From positions 310,001-374,000 of the forward strand of contig NZ_QNRR01000003.1 in the NCBI RefSeq assembly GCF_003315205.1: a stretch of 64,000 bases of DNA, given 5' to 3'. Origin of the DNA: Roseimicrobium gellanilyticum. Its GTDB lineage: Bacteria; Verrucomicrobiota; Verrucomicrobiia; Verrucomicrobiales; Verrucomicrobiaceae. The position numbers were made by a program, and so were the translations under genes. This document shows, piece by piece, positions 49,384 to 54,491 of this stretch; within the stretch, counting starts at the first letter, position 1, and every line of letters starts with the position of its first letter. The notes under the pieces are model-generated. The model was not told where the DNA came from, did no database searches, and saw nothing but the letters and a program-made list of their open reading frames with translations.

Positions 49384-50364
49384 ATGACCAACCGCCAGCG
49401 CGCGCAGATTTTTCATGAGATGGGCAAACTCCTGCGCGCGGGAGTGCACCTGGATCGCTCGGTGGATCTCCTCCTGGAGCAGGGCCCTGCAGCACCGGTG
49501 CGGAGCTGGCTGGAAGGTCTGAAACAGGGGCTCGCCGCCCGACTGAGCGTGGCGGAGGCTGTGGCGAAGAATGGGGCTACGCGTCCCCTTGAAACCAGCC
49601 TGCTCGCAGCCGGAGAAAAGGGAGGCAGGCTGGAGAATTCCTTCGAACACCTGGCGAGCTACTATGACCTGCGCCAGCGGAGCCGGGACAAGGCGATTGG
49701 AGCGCTCATCTATCCCTTCATCCTCCTGCACCTCGGTCTTTTCGTTCCGGACTTCGGCGGGATCATGCAGGGAAAAGGGCTCGGAGGATTGCTCCCGGAC
49801 TTTCTAAACCGGCTCATCATCGCCTGGACGTTGATCCTGGCAGTGGGGATAGCTGCGAAGATGGCCTTGAAAGCTGCAACGACGTCCACGGCAATTGACG
49901 GGTTGCTGAATTCGATACCCCTCGTGGGCGGTGTCCGCCGCCATTGGGCGCTGGCCCGTTTCTGTCAGGTGTTCCAGACCTGCCTGCTCGCCGCCCTGCG
50001 CATCTCGGACACACTGAGGCTGGCTGGCGATGCCTCGCAGAGTGCCGTGCTGGAGGACGCCGGCAAACAAGCGGCAGCGAAGGTGGAAAAGGGTGAGCAA
50101 CTCACCCCTTCCATGCGCGGTACAGGGGCCTTTCCCATCACCTTCATGCAATCCATCGCCACCGCTGAGGAAACCGGTACGCTCGACATCGAAATGGGAC
50201 GCTGGGCCGCAGCGGAATCCGAGCTTGCCTCCCAAGCGCAAAACCGGGCAGCGGAATGGCTGCCACGCATCTTCTACGTCATCGTCGTGTTTTACGTTGC
50301 GTACCGAATCGTGAGTGGGTTTGCCAGCTACTTCAACGGGTTGAACAGCATGCTGGGTGCGTAG
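49384..50364 (+). CDS. GspF/PilC-type type II secretion platform protein, solitary
   Basis: A 326-residue protein with two T2SSF domains: residues about 5-125 (EMGKLLRAGVHLDRSVDLLL; LLAAGEKGGRLENSFEHLAS) and about 190-310 (FCQVFQTCLLAALRISDTLR; QSIATAEETGTLDIEMGRWA). Three membrane segments are visible: about 104-122, 142-160 and 290-312. In type II secretion and type IV pili, GspF/PilC is the inner-membrane platform. No ATPase (GspE/PilB), pseudopilin or secretin genes lie within this window, so either the partners are elsewhere or this is a repurposed copy. Gap to the next gene 200 bases. Confidence 0.85.
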   Translation: MTNRQRAQIFHEMGKLLRAGVHLDRSVDLLLEQGPAAPVRSWLEGLKQGLAARLSVAEAVAKNGATRPLETSLLAAGEKGGRLENSFEHLASYYDLRQRSRDKAIGALIYPFILLHLGLFVPDFGGIMQGKGLGGLLPDFLNRLIIAWTLILAVGIAAKMALKAATTSTAIDGLLNSIPLVGGVRRHWALARFCQVFQTCLLAALRISDTLRLAGDASQSAVLEDAGKQAAAKVEKGEQLTPSMRGTGAFPITFMQSIATAEETGTLDIEMGRWAAAESELASQAQNRAAEWLPRIFYVIVVFYVAYRIVSGFASYFNGLNSMLGA

Positions 50365-50458
50365 GACCGTCGATAAACAATTCCGGGCTACTTATTCGAA
50401 CGCCCGCGCATTTCCGGACTGAACATGCCTTCAGTGAGTGGCGGAAATGTTACTCCAT

Positions 50459-50487
50459 TTGCGCCATTGTAATATGGTATGGAATAT
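50459..50487 (+). promoter_or_regulatory. Possible promoter in the AT-rich leader of the FnIII gene
   Basis: TTGCGC at 50459-50464 and GAATAT at 50482-50487 are 17 bases apart. The surrounding 50390-50510 stretch is clearly richer in A and T than its neighbourhood (TAATATGGTATGGAATATTTT). The hexamers match the consensus only partly. Confidence 0.27.
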
Positions 50488-50564
50488 TTTCTTGCGGCGC
50501 ATAAGCGCATCTGAAATGATGCGTGCGAGTCCAGAACACACAGCGTTTTCCCCCATCGCGTATC

Positions 50565-51722
50565 ATGGAGTGGTTCTACCTCGCCCTGCTGGCACCCTTT
50601 ATCCTGGTCCCTGTCGTGCTGCTCTTTGGGTATGCGGGATGCGGCAAGTTTGGCGTCAAACACGAGCTTACGCTCACGCATACGATTGACGGCACCACCG
50701 TCACGCTCACCTGGACCGCCGGTCCCGTGGGAACGATGAGATACCAAATCTCACGCGGTGAGGAGGGAGAGGATATCGAACAGATCTCCACGGCCCCCAG
50801 CACACAAACCCAGTATGCTGATACAGGCCGCCCGGAACTGGCCAAATATTTCTACACTGTCATCGCTCTGAATGGAGAGAATGACGAAGCAGCAAAGTCC
50901 AATCAACTGGAGGTGGACATTCCCCTCCTGGCTCCATCAAATCTCAAGGCCGTTGCGATTGAGGCGAACAAGGTCCGTCTCACCTGGACGAATGACGCCA
51001 ATTCCAGAGCCAACCGCAACGTGGTTCACCGCTTCCGAGCTGGCACTACCACGGATTTTGTAGACACGGACATTGCCCGCGCAGAGGCGCACGAGGACGT
51101 CACGCCATCTGCTGCCACGGATTTCAGCTATCAGATCGCCAGTCGACTGGTCGAGGCCGGAACCTCCGGCACCTCGATCTTCGTACCTCCGACGCCAGTA
51201 AACGTCGAGACCACGACTCCCCCACCCCCTGTAGAAAACCCTGTACTGGTCTTCCCCGCCACGCCCGCGCCTCCGCCGACCAGGGAGTCATCCAACGTGG
51301 GAGACTGTCTCATCCAACGCTTCCCCAGCGAACAGCTGCGTGCGGGAGGCAACAGACTGCGCGTCACCTTTCGCGCCGCTCCCAATGGTCTGGGATTCAA
51401 AAGAGTTACTGTCTCCCAACCCGCTCGCAGCGGAGACGATTTTGACTCTCACACGGATCTGAAAACGATTGAGACCAATTTCGACCTGTCCGCCACTGGA
51501 CCCACGGTGCGCACTGTCGACTACGTGCTGGACCCGGCTCAGGATCTTCTCATTGCTTTCGACGTGAAGGACAATGCGGGCATGGTGCCCGTGGTAGACG
51601 GTGTGGCTGGCTGCACCGTCTATCAGCAGGACAACACCGCGCAGGCAGACAGCATGGAACGCAGCGGCTTCCGGACCTTCAACAACACCCTGGTCATCGT
51701 TGAAAAAATCGAGGTCGTATAA
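50565..51722 (+). CDS. Membrane-anchored protein with two fibronectin type III-like domains
   Basis: A 385-residue protein. An N-terminal membrane anchor (FYLALLAPFILVPVVLLFGY) is followed by a short linker and two FnIII-like domains: about 35-115 (GTTVTLTWTAGPVGTMRYQI; AKYFYTVIALNGENDEAAKS) and about 120-215 (KAVAIEANKVRLTWTNDANS; TDFSYQIASRLVEAGTSGTS). A Pro/Thr-rich linker (PPTPVNVETTTPPPPVENP) leads to a C-terminal domain of about 140 residues without a recognised family. It is followed after six bases by the 920-residue gene, so they form a tight pair. A role in surface binding or scaffolding is inferred from the domains. The start ATG 50565 is chosen since the anchor begins there. Confidence 0.75.
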   Translation: MEWFYLALLAPFILVPVVLLFGYAGCGKFGVKHELTLTHTIDGTTVTLTWTAGPVGTMRYQISRGEEGEDIEQISTAPSTQTQYADTGRPELAKYFYTVIALNGENDEAAKSNQLEVDIPLLAPSNLKAVAIEANKVRLTWTNDANSRANRNVVHRFRAGTTTDFVDTDIARAEAHEDVTPSAATDFSYQIASRLVEAGTSGTSIFVPPTPVNVETTTPPPPVENPVLVFPATPAPPPTRESSNVGDCLIQRFPSEQLRAGGNRLRVTFRAAPNGLGFKRVTVSQPARSGDDFDSHTDLKTIETNFDLSATGPTVRTVDYVLDPAQDLLIAFDVKDNAGMVPVVDGVAGCTVYQQDNTAQADSMERSGFRTFNNTLVIVEKIEVV

Positions 51723-51728
51723 CCCGCC

Positions 51729-54491
51729 ATGGCCAATTCAATTACGGGACAGTTCGATGCGGCGCTGCAGATCAGCGTACAGCGGATCAATGGGTTGCTG
51801 GCCACCATGCACCAAAATCGCTGGGAACGGGAGCAAAACCCCAACTCCAAGCTGGCCACCTTTCCCCACACGGACAAAATCCGACTGGGACCACTGCCGT
51901 TTCACATTGACCCTGCCTTGCTGCAGATCGCGGTGTGGTTCCAGAATCGTGGGGAGGGAAACGCCGAAAACGCTCCCAACCCGAATGACTCCGGCCTCTC
52001 AAGCTTTTTGAACGGCCTGCCGCCAGAAACAGCTGCGGGACTCATGGAGCATTTTGTGAACTGGCACAGTGCTGCCACCTCTGCCACGGAAGCTGCCGGC
52101 AGCATGGCGAGGGGGTTGGCTGAGGTGCAGATTTCCGCCCCGTCCATCAGCCTGGCCAACGGCGACATGAACAAGGTCACCGTGCATGTTTTCATTCGCG
52201 CGCGCTACCTCGCGGACAGCCCCAGCCCTCTGCTGCCGGAGCGCATTCACGGAGAGGTGCGCATCGGTTACGAAATGAAGCGTGAAGGAAACTCGCTCAA
52301 GGTCGTGCCCTCGGAGGACGACAGCAAGATTTCCTTCATCTCAGCAACCTCGATCGCGCACGTCGTAACGGCTGCCATTACCAAGGAAATCATCTTGCTG
52401 GTGCGCGAGCGTTTCCGGCCCAACTTCGTGGATGTCACGAGTGACTTTGGCTTCTCTGCAGCCTTCAAGGCACTGGGCAGCGGTTCCAGCCAGGTGCTCG
52501 CCATGCCGGTATCTCTCACGCCGGACGGAGTGCCTGCGGGAAACGTCGACAGCCTGAACAGTGCCTGGTTGGGGAATCAGGATTTCGCGCTGGCCGTGAG
52601 CAAGGAGTTCGTGGGAGGGAAATTCGAACCTGCGCTGGCGCCACTGCGCGGTTTCAGCGTGAGGTTCACGGTGAATGTGGATGTCCTGATTTTTGGTTTC
52701 AGCGTCGCCGAATTCACGCTGCGAATTCTGGACGCGCGGCTGGAGTGGAGTGCCGGACTCGTGACGCTGAGGATCGATGCCAAGCTCCTGGCATCAGTGG
52801 CCTTTGGAGCGATTCGAGATTCCTATGATATTGTCGTGACCCAGAAGATGCGCTTCCAGCTGGCTTCGGGAATGGTCACTCTCACGGCTGTCGACGGCGA
52901 TCTCCATGTCACCGGCGCACCGACGGAATTTGGCATCCATGATGAGGCGTGGAAAGCCGCGCGTGATGCCCGCAATCGATCATTACCCGCGGTGCAGCAG
53001 ATGGTTCCCAAGCTGTTCCAGGATGGCGAATCCCCGGGCATCGGCAAAGGAGCGCTCCGACGCATCGGAGTGGCTCTGCGCAGGTTCGACACGAATCTTG
53101 CGGTGGCGTACAAGATCCTGGAGGTCAACAGCAGCGGGATCATTGTGCGGGGCGCCATCTCCGGTGGGAAACGCATGGCCCCCATCGCGGACATCGGGAG
53201 TGCCGACGGCGGCGACAGCTACACCGCCCTGCATAGCTGGATACCTGGAGGCCGGATCGAAAAGCTGCAGTGGGGCATGTGGGAAAAAGTGCCCTTCCAG
53301 AAGGCCCTCGCCACATCCGGGCTGTTGTGGACCCTGCCGTGGGAAGGCATGCCAAAATTCTCCGGGGAGGAGACAGAACATTTCATGTTTCCTCATGCAT
53401 GGACGCTGCCGCGCAGCACCACGGTGTGCCTCACCATCTATGGCTCCCGGAGGGATCTCAGGGGTGTGGTGGAAGATGATGTGTGGGGAGCGGATAACAC
53501 CCGCGGGGCGTGCGCTCCGGTGGAACTCCCGCCTATTTTCATCGACGCGCACTGGAAGGAGTTCAAGATCCCCAACATCTGGCCGGACTTCACCGGAGAA
53601 GCGATTCTGGAGGATCTCATCTTTGCCCATATCGATGCCTCGGTGCCGGACTGGCCAGGAGGTGAACTGACCACCAATCATCTTGTGCATTTCATGGACT
53701 GGAGCGCGGAGCAGCCCATGCAGGTCATCCACGAGGCATTGGGCATGATGAAGAAAAAACAATTTTCTCTTTCGCTCATGGTCGTGGTGCCGCAGGGAAG
53801 CCTCAAGGTATCACGCTACGAAATGGAGGAGAAACTCGGCCTCGCGGGTCCCCACGAAAAAATTGGCCAGAAGAAAGGCCAGTCCCCGGTGCACATTCAA
53901 GTGGTGGAGGATCTGAACCGAGGCTGGTCTGAAGTGTTCCATGCAAGCGGCACGCCGGCGACATATTTTGTGAATGCACACCGACAGCGGGTCTGGGACA
54001 TGGATGGTCCCGTGGACCCCGGTGAACTCGCGGCTGTGCTGGACAAGCAGATCGTACCCGCCCCCGCCGCGCGAAATCGGCTTCCCGCACTGGTCACTCG
54101 CCCGGGAAACAGCCTGCCTCCCATCAACTTCGTGGATGATCAGGGCAATGCGATGCGCCTGCGGGACTTTTCCAAGAAGGAGCTGAAGCTCTGCTTCTGG
54201 AATGCGTCCTCCCGACCGTGCATCCGCGAGTTGCAGCGGTTGGAGGAGATGCAAAAGGCGGATGGCGATCTGGTAGTGGTAGGGCTTTGCGGCGATGAAG
54301 ATGCGAAGGTAATCTCCCGCATACGTGAGCAGTACCAGCTCTCCATGATTCTGGCGCAGGACCCGGAACGGACCAATGCCCGGAAGCTCAAGGTGCGCTG
54401 CTGGCCCACCACACTGAGCATTGGCCATGAGAACATTCTCCACAGCATCCAGTACGGCTACCCGATGAAGGGGGGCCTGGGGAAGGAGTAG
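51729..54491 (+). CDS. Large protein of unknown function ending in two degenerate thioredoxin-fold domains
   Basis: A 920-residue protein without signal peptide. Residues 1-400 (FDAALQISVQRINGLLATMH; NVDVLIFGFSVAEFTLRILD) are amphipathic and beta-rich, faintly reminiscent of lipid-binding TULIP-type folds, but no family is certain. Residues about 400-645 are unassigned. Residues about 648-780 look like a TlpA-type fold (HLVHFMDWSAEQPMQVIHEA ... GTPATYFVNAHRQRVWDMDG) with a cis-Pro loop and both redox cysteines lost. Residues about 794-915 form a second such fold (LKLCFWNASSRPCIRELQRL ... CWPTTLSIGH); its CxxC is SxxC, with C831 kept. Both thus look non-catalytic or altered. It is coupled by six bases to the FnIII gene. 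No homolog is named. Confidence 0.78.
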   Translation: MANSITGQFDAALQISVQRINGLLATMHQNRWEREQNPNSKLATFPHTDKIRLGPLPFHIDPALLQIAVWFQNRGEGNAENAPNPNDSGLSSFLNGLPPETAAGLMEHFVNWHSAATSATEAAGSMARGLAEVQISAPSISLANGDMNKVTVHVFIRARYLADSPSPLLPERIHGEVRIGYEMKREGNSLKVVPSEDDSKISFISATSIAHVVTAAITKEIILLVRERFRPNFVDVTSDFGFSAAFKALGSGSSQVLAMPVSLTPDGVPAGNVDSLNSAWLGNQDFALAVSKEFVGGKFEPALAPLRGFSVRFTVNVDVLIFGFSVAEFTLRILDARLEWSAGLVTLRIDAKLLASVAFGAIRDSYDIVVTQKMRFQLASGMVTLTAVDGDLHVTGAPTEFGIHDEAWKAARDARNRSLPAVQQMVPKLFQDGESPGIGKGALRRIGVALRRFDTNLAVAYKILEVNSSGIIVRGAISGGKRMAPIADIGSADGGDSYTALHSWIPGGRIEKLQWGMWEKVPFQKALATSGLLWTLPWEGMPKFSGEETEHFMFPHAWTLPRSTTVCLTIYGSRRDLRGVVEDDVWGADNTRGACAPVELPPIFIDAHWKEFKIPNIWPDFTGEAILEDLIFAHIDASVPDWPGGELTTNHLVHFMDWSAEQPMQVIHEALGMMKKKQFSLSLMVVVPQGSLKVSRYEMEEKLGLAGPHEKIGQKKGQSPVHIQVVEDLNRGWSEVFHASGTPATYFVNAHRQRVWDMDGPVDPGELAAVLDKQIVPAPAARNRLPALVTRPGNSLPPINFVDDQGNAMRLRDFSKKELKLCFWNASSRPCIRELQRLEEMQKADGDLVVVGLCGDEDAKVISRIREQYQLSMILAQDPERTNARKLKVRCWPTTLSIGHENILHSIQYGYPMKGGLGKE

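Follow-up and report, generated by a model that had tools for sequence, protein, structure and literature searches.

The gene pair at positions 50565-54491 of a 64,000-nucleotide stretch of the Roseimicrobium gellanilyticum genome (contig NZ_QNRR01000003.1, positions 310,001 to 374,000; hereafter the window) encodes a membrane-anchored protein with a fibronectin type III (FnIII) payload, which we call the anchor, and a 920-residue protein, which we call Big. Beyond what an earlier sequence-only reading of this DNA had described, relatives of the pair belong to a four-gene cassette that also holds an LspA-like and an Lgt-like gene, and the N-terminal segment of the anchor ends in a lipobox-like Gly-Cys. 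We propose, at about even confidence, that the cassette is an inside-out lipoprotein module, in which Lgt and LspA paralogues flipped in the membrane would lipidate and cut dedicated anchors on the cytoplasmic side, with Big as a bound partner. The broader reading hangs in the same balance: a horizontally spread pathway, present in about five phyla, whose flipped Lgt and LspA would yield cytosolic proteins with a lipid anchor, which a TULIP-thioredoxin partner would handle. The parts of the window pair are as follows.

50565..51722, + strand: anchor gene P0002, 385 residues, with a hydrophobic N-terminal anchor ending in a lipobox-like Gly-Cys and an FnIII-type payload
50565..50642, + strand: conserved anchor signal, residues 1-26, with an acidic short tail M-E-W, a hydrophobic segment without Lys or Arg and a terminal G-Y-A-G-C
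50667..50915, + strand: FnIII domain, anchor residues 35-117 (Pfam fn3, E 3.6e-6)
51729..54491, + strand: Big gene P0001, 920 residues, with two predicted TULIP folds, a middle part and two thioredoxin folds without CxxC
51729..52577, + strand: predicted first TULIP fold, Big residues ~1-283 (approximate boundary, transferred from the model of the relative L035)
52578..53168, + strand: predicted second TULIP fold, Big residues ~284-480 (approximate; L035 model match and AlphaFold2 element order)
53169..53666, + strand: middle part of Big, containing SWIPGG, a motif of the family, at 503-508 and a conserved Cys-Leu pair at 567-568, from the alignment of relatives
53667..54068, + strand: predicted first thioredoxin fold, Big residues ~647-780, redox cysteines absent (AlphaFold2 element order and alignment of relatives)
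54096..54473, + strand: second thioredoxin fold, Big residues ~790-915, ResA/TlpA-like, with SxxC in the place of CxxC and a Cys-Trp dipeptide ahead of the cis-Pro

The window pair is a satellite of a four-gene cassette

The sequence-only reading had proposed a two-gene unit whose first product is an FnIII-like anchored protein, and this holds: the two genes lie six bases apart on the same strand, and the fn3 match of the anchor (27.5 bits) exceeds the cut-off of 25. Big has no upstream extension, because the stop codon of the anchor gene (51720-51722) is in frame with it. For the anchor gene, a GTG at 50523 offers an alternative earlier start; we take the ATG at 50565, because both the same-genus orthologue and one paralogue have an in-frame stop directly ahead of the MEW start.

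The N-terminal part of Big was found in 12 genomes from five phyla, and in 12/12 of them anchor, LspA-like and Lgt-like genes adjoin a Big gene, in an order that varies among the genomes and with genes on opposite strands in two (L040 and L111). In G1114, Lgt and the anchor share one reading frame. The frame at L112:9160-10716 (minus strand), in a genome of the planctomycete phylum, which joins an Lgt-like sequence and an anchor, is either a true fusion or contains a rare internal start; at L111:4835-7500 (minus strand), an actinobacterial Big is split over two overlapping frames, by frameshift or assembly error.

The window pair is a satellite copy: no enzyme gene of the Lgt/LspA kind adjoins it inside the window, and its enzymes lie ~141 kb away in the same genome, in one row with two further Big genes (32% and 31% identical to window Big) and in the order anchor, Big, anchor, anchor, Big, LspA-like, Lgt-like. 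The whole genome holds three Big genes, four anchors, one non-housekeeping LspA and one non-housekeeping Lgt. The sister species shares this layout but has an additional anchor (three Big genes, five anchors), and one LspA-like and one Lgt-like gene in the stretch examined. One enzyme set for three Big genes and four to five anchors in these sister genomes suggests that the cassette enzymes serve all anchors in common and that the window pair relies on them in trans. In both species of the genus, response-regulator-like and histidine-kinase-like genes, named by eye, lie directly before the row (L004:17276-19758 and L205:15204-17500, both minus strand).

The cassette enzymes are paralogues. Each of seven genomes searched whole with Pfam models has another Lgt and another LspA besides the cassette copy, and in six of the seven these score much higher than the cassette copies; in the seventh, the planctomycete genome G291, the match to the other Lgt falls into two pieces and scores about as high as the cassette copy, and there are also a second further LspA and a third, distant Lgt-like stretch (L055), which lies within a 1142-residue open frame. 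The cassette Lgt of R. gellanilyticum matches PF01790 with an E of 3.9e-29 and its cassette LspA matches PF01252 (Peptidase_A8) with an E of 1.8e-11; in the whole-genome search this LspA-like protein scores only 43 bits against the family. Across the 11 cassette copies of each enzyme, Lgt keeps R239, Y235 and G154 in 11/11 and the Tyr of WYGL in 10/11, with R143, like R239 an essential arginine of Lgt, as Arg in nine and Lys in two and E243 replaced by a non-Glu residue in three; LspA keeps in 11/11 the Asp of xDF/xDY and the Asp of NxAD, which we take to be the catalytic pair. The cassette Lgt of R. gellanilyticum is 62% identical to that of the actinobacterial genome G685, 51% to that of Smaragdicoccus and 22-32% to the other eight; such high identity across phyla points to movement of the cassette between phyla by transfer.

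The cassette Lgt and LspA show a reversed Lys/Arg distribution

The 11 cassette Lgt and LspA sequences were aligned with seven other copies of each from the same genomes, and lysine plus arginine (K+R) was counted per membrane side, with loop limits set from one housekeeping copy and with both ends of LspA presumed to lie inside. Further controls were 30 LspA from the same phylum as R. gellanilyticum and 29 Lgt, the latter comprising 28 own-phylum sequences and the poorly aligned L055 (L144, in a wrong reading frame, was omitted); the own-phylum controls are best-scoring matches rather than random draws, and their housekeeping status is assumed. The cytoplasmic side of E. coli Lgt is strongly positive and the periplasmic side negative; the active site faces the periplasm and the C-terminus lies inside (PMC4728403, PMC8689077; papers are cited by PubMed Central (PMC) number, and what is drawn from each extends to the part of its text that was available).

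For Lgt, the cytoplasmic minus periplasmic K+R difference is -16 to -11 in the 11 cassette copies versus -6 to +7 in the seven other copies and 0 to +6 in the 29 further ones. Its mean cytoplasmic K+R is 3.0 in the cassette versus 12.0 in the others, and per residue the cassette copies have 0.075 inside and 0.171 outside, against 0.233 and 0.080. The LspA difference runs from -12 to -5 among the cassette copies and from -2 to +4 among the seven housekeeping ones, with mean values of 0.9 versus 6.4 inside and 10.3 versus 5.6 outside; without the N-tail, it is -12 to -5 versus -4 to +2 (seven copies) and -4 to +4 (30 further copies). With the main loop limits, 11/11 cassette copies fall outside the range of all controls, in Lgt and LspA alike. 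As a separate observation, the 28 own-phylum Lgt (L139-L167 minus L144) have a normal charge distribution, carry GCxxxGCC instead of the E. coli signature and mostly have Tyr at H103; if such an Lgt is the only one of its genome, it would be a natural active-site variant.

Judged from their sequences, the cassette Lgt and LspA lack a positive cytoplasmic side, and it is from this charge that we infer their orientation. The cassette copies form one clade for each enzyme (support 0.889 for Lgt, 0.866 for LspA), and each charge shift probably happened once and then persisted through sequence divergence. The parallel shift in two unrelated families, combined with the acidic tail of the substrate and the lack of an export signal on the partner, argues for an inverted orientation of both enzymes.

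The anchors share an acidic-tailed, lipobox-like N-terminus

Thirteen aligned anchors have a common N-terminus, consisting of Met, 0-3 residues, Asp/Glu-Trp, ~18-20 hydrophobic residues and [FY]-x-Gly-Cys. With the MEW or MxDW start assumed, an acidic tail residue is present in 11/13 and no Lys or Arg precedes the Cys in 12/13, the other having an Arg at -4, such that the positively charged n-region of an ordinary lipoprotein is absent. For comparison, two ordinary lipobox proteins within the window have one and two Lys/Arg in their signals, a sample too small for statistics. The Gly-Cys is strictly conserved (13/13); compared with the lipobox [LV][ASTVI][GAS]C, positions -2, -1 and the Cys fit, whereas -3 is Phe or Tyr in 12 anchors and Thr in one.

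Behind this N-terminus the payload varies. All four anchors of R. gellanilyticum carry fn3, three above the Pfam cut-off and one below; elsewhere, fn3 falls below cut-off in L035, L039 and L109, Laminin_G_3 is found in L040 and L111 (and by eye in L110), and the payloads of the L036, L037 and L038 anchors received no Pfam name. Between the sister species, the first 30 residues of the anchors are 77% identical, compared with 55% over the whole anchor. With its constant sequence in front of a varying payload, the anchor N-terminus looks like a sorting signal. A hidden Markov model (HMM) of the signature gave 14 matches at E<=1e-3 in 11 genomes, every one adjoining a Big gene, and no further substrates at that threshold; 11 weaker rows had E values from 0.003 to 0.8.

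Big combines predicted TULIP folds with thioredoxin folds that lack CxxC

The sequence-only reading had placed two thioredoxin folds at the C-terminus of Big, and models support both. For the second, Pfam finds AhpC-TSA (PF00578) at 793-904 (E 3.1e-9), with Redoxin slightly under the cut-off, and residues 789-915 superpose on a ResA chain with a Z of 19.7 over 127 residues (root mean square deviation (RMSD) 1.8); with the full-length model, the VIA structural match lies mainly over 786-919. An AlphaFold2 model of Big, built from a 7-sequence alignment, shows the element order of a thioredoxin at ~650-774 and ~800-909, and it is from this order, at moderate predicted local distance difference test (pLDDT) scores, that the first fold is assigned. 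Across the middle part (481-646), the region with SWIPGG, pLDDT is mostly below 50.

The motifs quoted by that reading are present, and the loss of CxxC proves to be family-wide. In the second fold none of 13 relatives has the redox motif: the first Cys is replaced by Ser in 12 and Thr in one, the second Cys is kept in 7/13, and a Cys precedes the Trp-cisPro in 9/13. In the first fold, no Cys occurs among the 13 relatives in the stretch aligned with DWSAEQPM. The Big of G582, split over two frames, enters this alignment mainly through its C-terminal piece. A dithiol redox function of these folds was rejected on the lack of CxxC in the 13 relatives. Window Big is 77% identical to its same-genus orthologue, with a ratio of nonsynonymous to synonymous substitution rates (dN/dS) of ~0.18, and of ~0.08 in the first thioredoxin fold; purifying selection acts on Big. 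The suggestion that these folds bind rather than catalyse fits both the absence of CxxC and this selection, and as an overall interpretation it is partly supported.

The N-terminal 645 residues, previously described as belonging to no recognised family, indeed match no family in Pfam or NCBIfam, but models place two TULIP folds over residues 1-480. In a second model, covering residues 1-480 of the Smaragdicoccus relative L035, 11/11 Foldseek hits at E<=0.001 are TULIP proteins (chains of OrfX1-OrfX3 complexes, CETP, LBP, BPI, P47 and OrfX2), and VIA matches YceB at 6-259 (Z 9.4) and BPIFA1 at 284-449 (Z 8.8). The two domains match singly and not in their arrangement, because superpositions across both are poor (RMSD >20). 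From these weak models, Big residues 1-480 may be read as two TULIP folds, for which lipid binding is a prediction; since TULIP domains are non-enzymes, the N-terminal part was not found to belong to an enzyme family. All aligned relatives of Big share a hydrophilic opening, [MV]-[ATV]-N-x-x-TG, which was also taken as the start where a frame opens further upstream, and no signal peptide is seen on Big as judged by this start, no signal-peptide program having been run.

A proposed inside-out module and its alternatives

In the proposed mechanism, the anchor N-terminus, with its acidic short tail, one hydrophobic segment and aromatic-x-Gly-Cys, would be a dedicated lipobox-like signal that inserts tail-out, such that the Gly-Cys and the payload face the cytoplasm. 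The dedicated Lgt and LspA paralogues would sit in the membrane inverted relative to the housekeeping enzymes, the cassette Lgt adding diacylglyceryl to the anchor Cys and the cassette LspA cutting before it, and the payload would stay lipid-fixed to the cytoplasmic leaflet. Big, made without a signal peptide, would remain cytoplasmic, its two TULIP folds binding the anchor or its lipid and its thioredoxin folds serving binding instead of redox catalysis. To our knowledge, all known lipoprotein maturation by Lgt and LspA occurs at the outer surface of the cytoplasmic membrane; if confirmed, maturation of this type inside the cell would be new. Two unrelated polytopic enzymes whose charge distribution changed jointly, with their matching substrate, would amount to an entire pathway naturally inverted in the membrane, and bacteria would gain a covalent lipid anchor for cytosolic proteins. 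The anchor signature provides a search term for finding more such systems.

Several observations weigh against this mechanism. Charge is the sole evidence for the inverted orientation, and its p-values (~5e-4 for both LspA and Lgt) treat kin sequences as independent; since each cassette enzyme set is one clade, the charge shift counts as one event per family and the p-values overstate independence. The separation in LspA also responds to loop limits: if each end of the second cytoplasmic loop is extended by 3 residues and each end of the first periplasmic loop is cut back by as many, the ranges meet, at -11 to -4 versus -4 to +4, and under the reverse adjustment a single cassette copy, at -5, falls within the control range of -6 to +1. 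The anchor signature has exceptions, as the acidic residue is missing from L040 and L111 and the Trp from L039, L040 has Thr at -3, and an Arg stands at -4 in the L110 anchor and in the G1114 frame; moreover, the anchor frames of the window, of L109 and one in L205 open further upstream, where an earlier start would add basic residues. The two structure models are of low confidence (mean pLDDT 56 for Big and 57 for L035), and the TULIP Z-scores of 8.8-9.4 are modest, with the non-TULIP chain Aha1 next at 7.8. The cassette Lgt lacks H103 and has Cys for E. coli N146 and E151. As an argument for a dead enzyme this last point is poor, as the 29 further Lgt, of normal charge, differ likewise (Cys replaces N146 in all 29 and E151 in 28, and the position of H103 holds Tyr, Phe or Val throughout). 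Finally, known proteins carry FnIII, LamG, TULIP and TlpA/ResA-like folds mostly outside the cytoplasm, and such payload and partner folds speak for a periplasmic site.

This last point leads to the main rival, a normally oriented dedicated pathway, which we hold to be unlikely though worth serious consideration: odd-signal lipoproteins would be matured periplasmically by the same paralogous enzymes, complex formation or an anionic partner would account for the charge shift, and Big would reach the periplasm by another route or act elsewhere. Besides the usual location of the folds, which is general knowledge, the retained catalytic residues of both enzymes suit it, as does the fit of all 13 anchors to [ASTVI][GAS]C at -2 to +1 of the lipobox (PMC8689077). 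It fits poorly with cytoplasmic loops and tails depleted of most Lys and Arg in both enzymes, with a Big that has no visible signal peptide, and with anchor tails devoid of the positive charge that ordinary lipoprotein signals carry, both as described (PMC8689077) and as seen in the two lipobox proteins of the window.

Distinctly less probable is that the enzymes are inverted but have another job, acting on a free-lipid substrate or serving as a membrane scaffold for Big. The substitutions at R143 (Lys in 2/11) and E243 (non-Glu in 3/11) of the cassette Lgt and the low family score of the R. gellanilyticum LspA-like protein would be in keeping with such a role; the LspA Asp pair and Lgt R239, both kept in 11/11, and the invariant Gly-Cys of the 13 anchors count against it. 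That the pair consists simply of an anchored protein and a pseudo-thioredoxin companion, with the enzymes encoded near its relatives being unrelated neighbours, would explain the lack of an adjoining enzyme gene at the window pair but is very improbable, given linkage in 12/12 genomes across different gene orders, the single reading frame shared by Lgt and the anchor in G1114, and sister copies in the same genome in a tight gene row with both enzymes.

Distribution and genomic surroundings

Relatives of Big are rare. A scan of 84,980 species genomes, made with an alignment of three N-terminal parts from R. gellanilyticum, returned at least six relatives, a lower bound because it demands an exact short peptide pattern: Smaragdicoccus and one Mycobacteriaceae, two gammaproteobacterial, one planctomycete and one gemmatimonad assembly. 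In sampled searches, the N-terminal part was matched in 4/396 genomes of the Smaragdicoccus phylum, 1/220 of the gemmatimonad phylum, 2/294 of the planctomycete phylum, 1/369 of the gammaproteobacterial class and 1/288 of the own phylum (the centre genome being included in each of these counts), and in 2/68 of the own family; the phylum and class searches scored 2-4 first-look candidates per genome, so that a distant copy could escape, and the family search scored all. Genomes matching only the C-terminal thioredoxin part were left uncounted (51 in the own phylum, one each in the Smaragdicoccus and gemmatimonad phyla, six in the planctomycete phylum and 38 in the gammaproteobacterial class). 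A survey for the same pair in other Verrucomicrobia, as the sequence-only reading had suggested, finds it in two species of one genus; the other relatives lie in other phyla. Among viral contigs, none of 14 pattern matches is a relative of the N-terminal part, and 13 plasmid records match only the C-terminal part, over at most 20% of the query; a phage or plasmid home of Big was dropped on these grounds.

The window pair is flanked by a T2SF-like gene before it and recA after it, both named by eye from translations, and a second species of the genus carries this pair at the corresponding position, with both neighbours kept. The T2SF-like gene, with the look of type II secretion or pilus assembly, lies at 49384-50364. 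Between it and the pair lies one further feature.

50365..50564, + strand: upstream intergenic stretch, mildly AT-rich

The earlier description of an AT-rich 200-base leader distinct from its surroundings stands in part: G+C content is lower at 50300-50599 (0.505-0.52, elsewhere mostly 0.55-0.65 with a minimum of 0.53), but the difference is mild and ordinary for intergenic DNA. A sigma-70-like promoter was sought in this stretch and none was found; tandem repeats were looked for with no result, and PADLOC gave no defence-system match for the 8 proteins tested.

Comparison with known systems

In open-licence PMC full text, covered by titles and abstract openings and among the matches listed, with most subscription papers lying outside it, neither the cassette nor an inverted Lgt/LspA nor a TULIP-thioredoxin protein was found. 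Like canonical maturation by Lgt and LspA (PMC4728403, PMC8689077), the cassette has homologous enzymes, their key catalytic residues and a substrate with a hydrophobic segment and Gly-Cys; unlike it, the cassette represents a second dedicated enzyme set with reversed Lys/Arg and a TULIP-thioredoxin partner, and its anchors have an acidic rather than a basic tail and an aromatic residue at -3. Proteins such as YdgE/YdgF (PMC3962082) set a precedent for homologues that are oppositely oriented and oppositely biased in Lys/Arg; these are pairs of small membrane proteins, whereas in the cassette two unrelated enzyme families have changed together.

By fold match, Big resembles P47, OrfX3 and BPI in having two TULIP folds per chain (PMC6791001), but it differs from P47/OrfX, YceB and BPI/LBP in having no sequence match to them, a fused thioredoxin pair and a place in a lipoprotein-enzyme cassette. 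The words "thioredoxin" and "Verrucomicrob" are absent from this paper on bacterial TULIPs, and "lipoprotein" from PMC7020563 on orfX-p47 clusters. Big residues ~790-915 share fold and profile match with the ResA/TlpA oxidoreductases; unlike these, Big has CxxC in 0/13 relatives and no visible export signal, and the domain is part of a large protein.

The nearest published idea found is the GS-lipobox of the Skillet-1 lipocone systems (PMC12419801), itself a prediction. There, a lipocone enzyme is paired with a Gly-Ser box, whereas the cassette has Lgt and LspA (LGT, Peptidase_A8) with a Gly-Cys box, and the available description proposes no inversion. In both, a dedicated enzyme shares an operon with an odd lipobox-like protein, and the Skillet-1 substrates carry variable domains (concanavalin, Ig-like), just as the anchors vary their payload.

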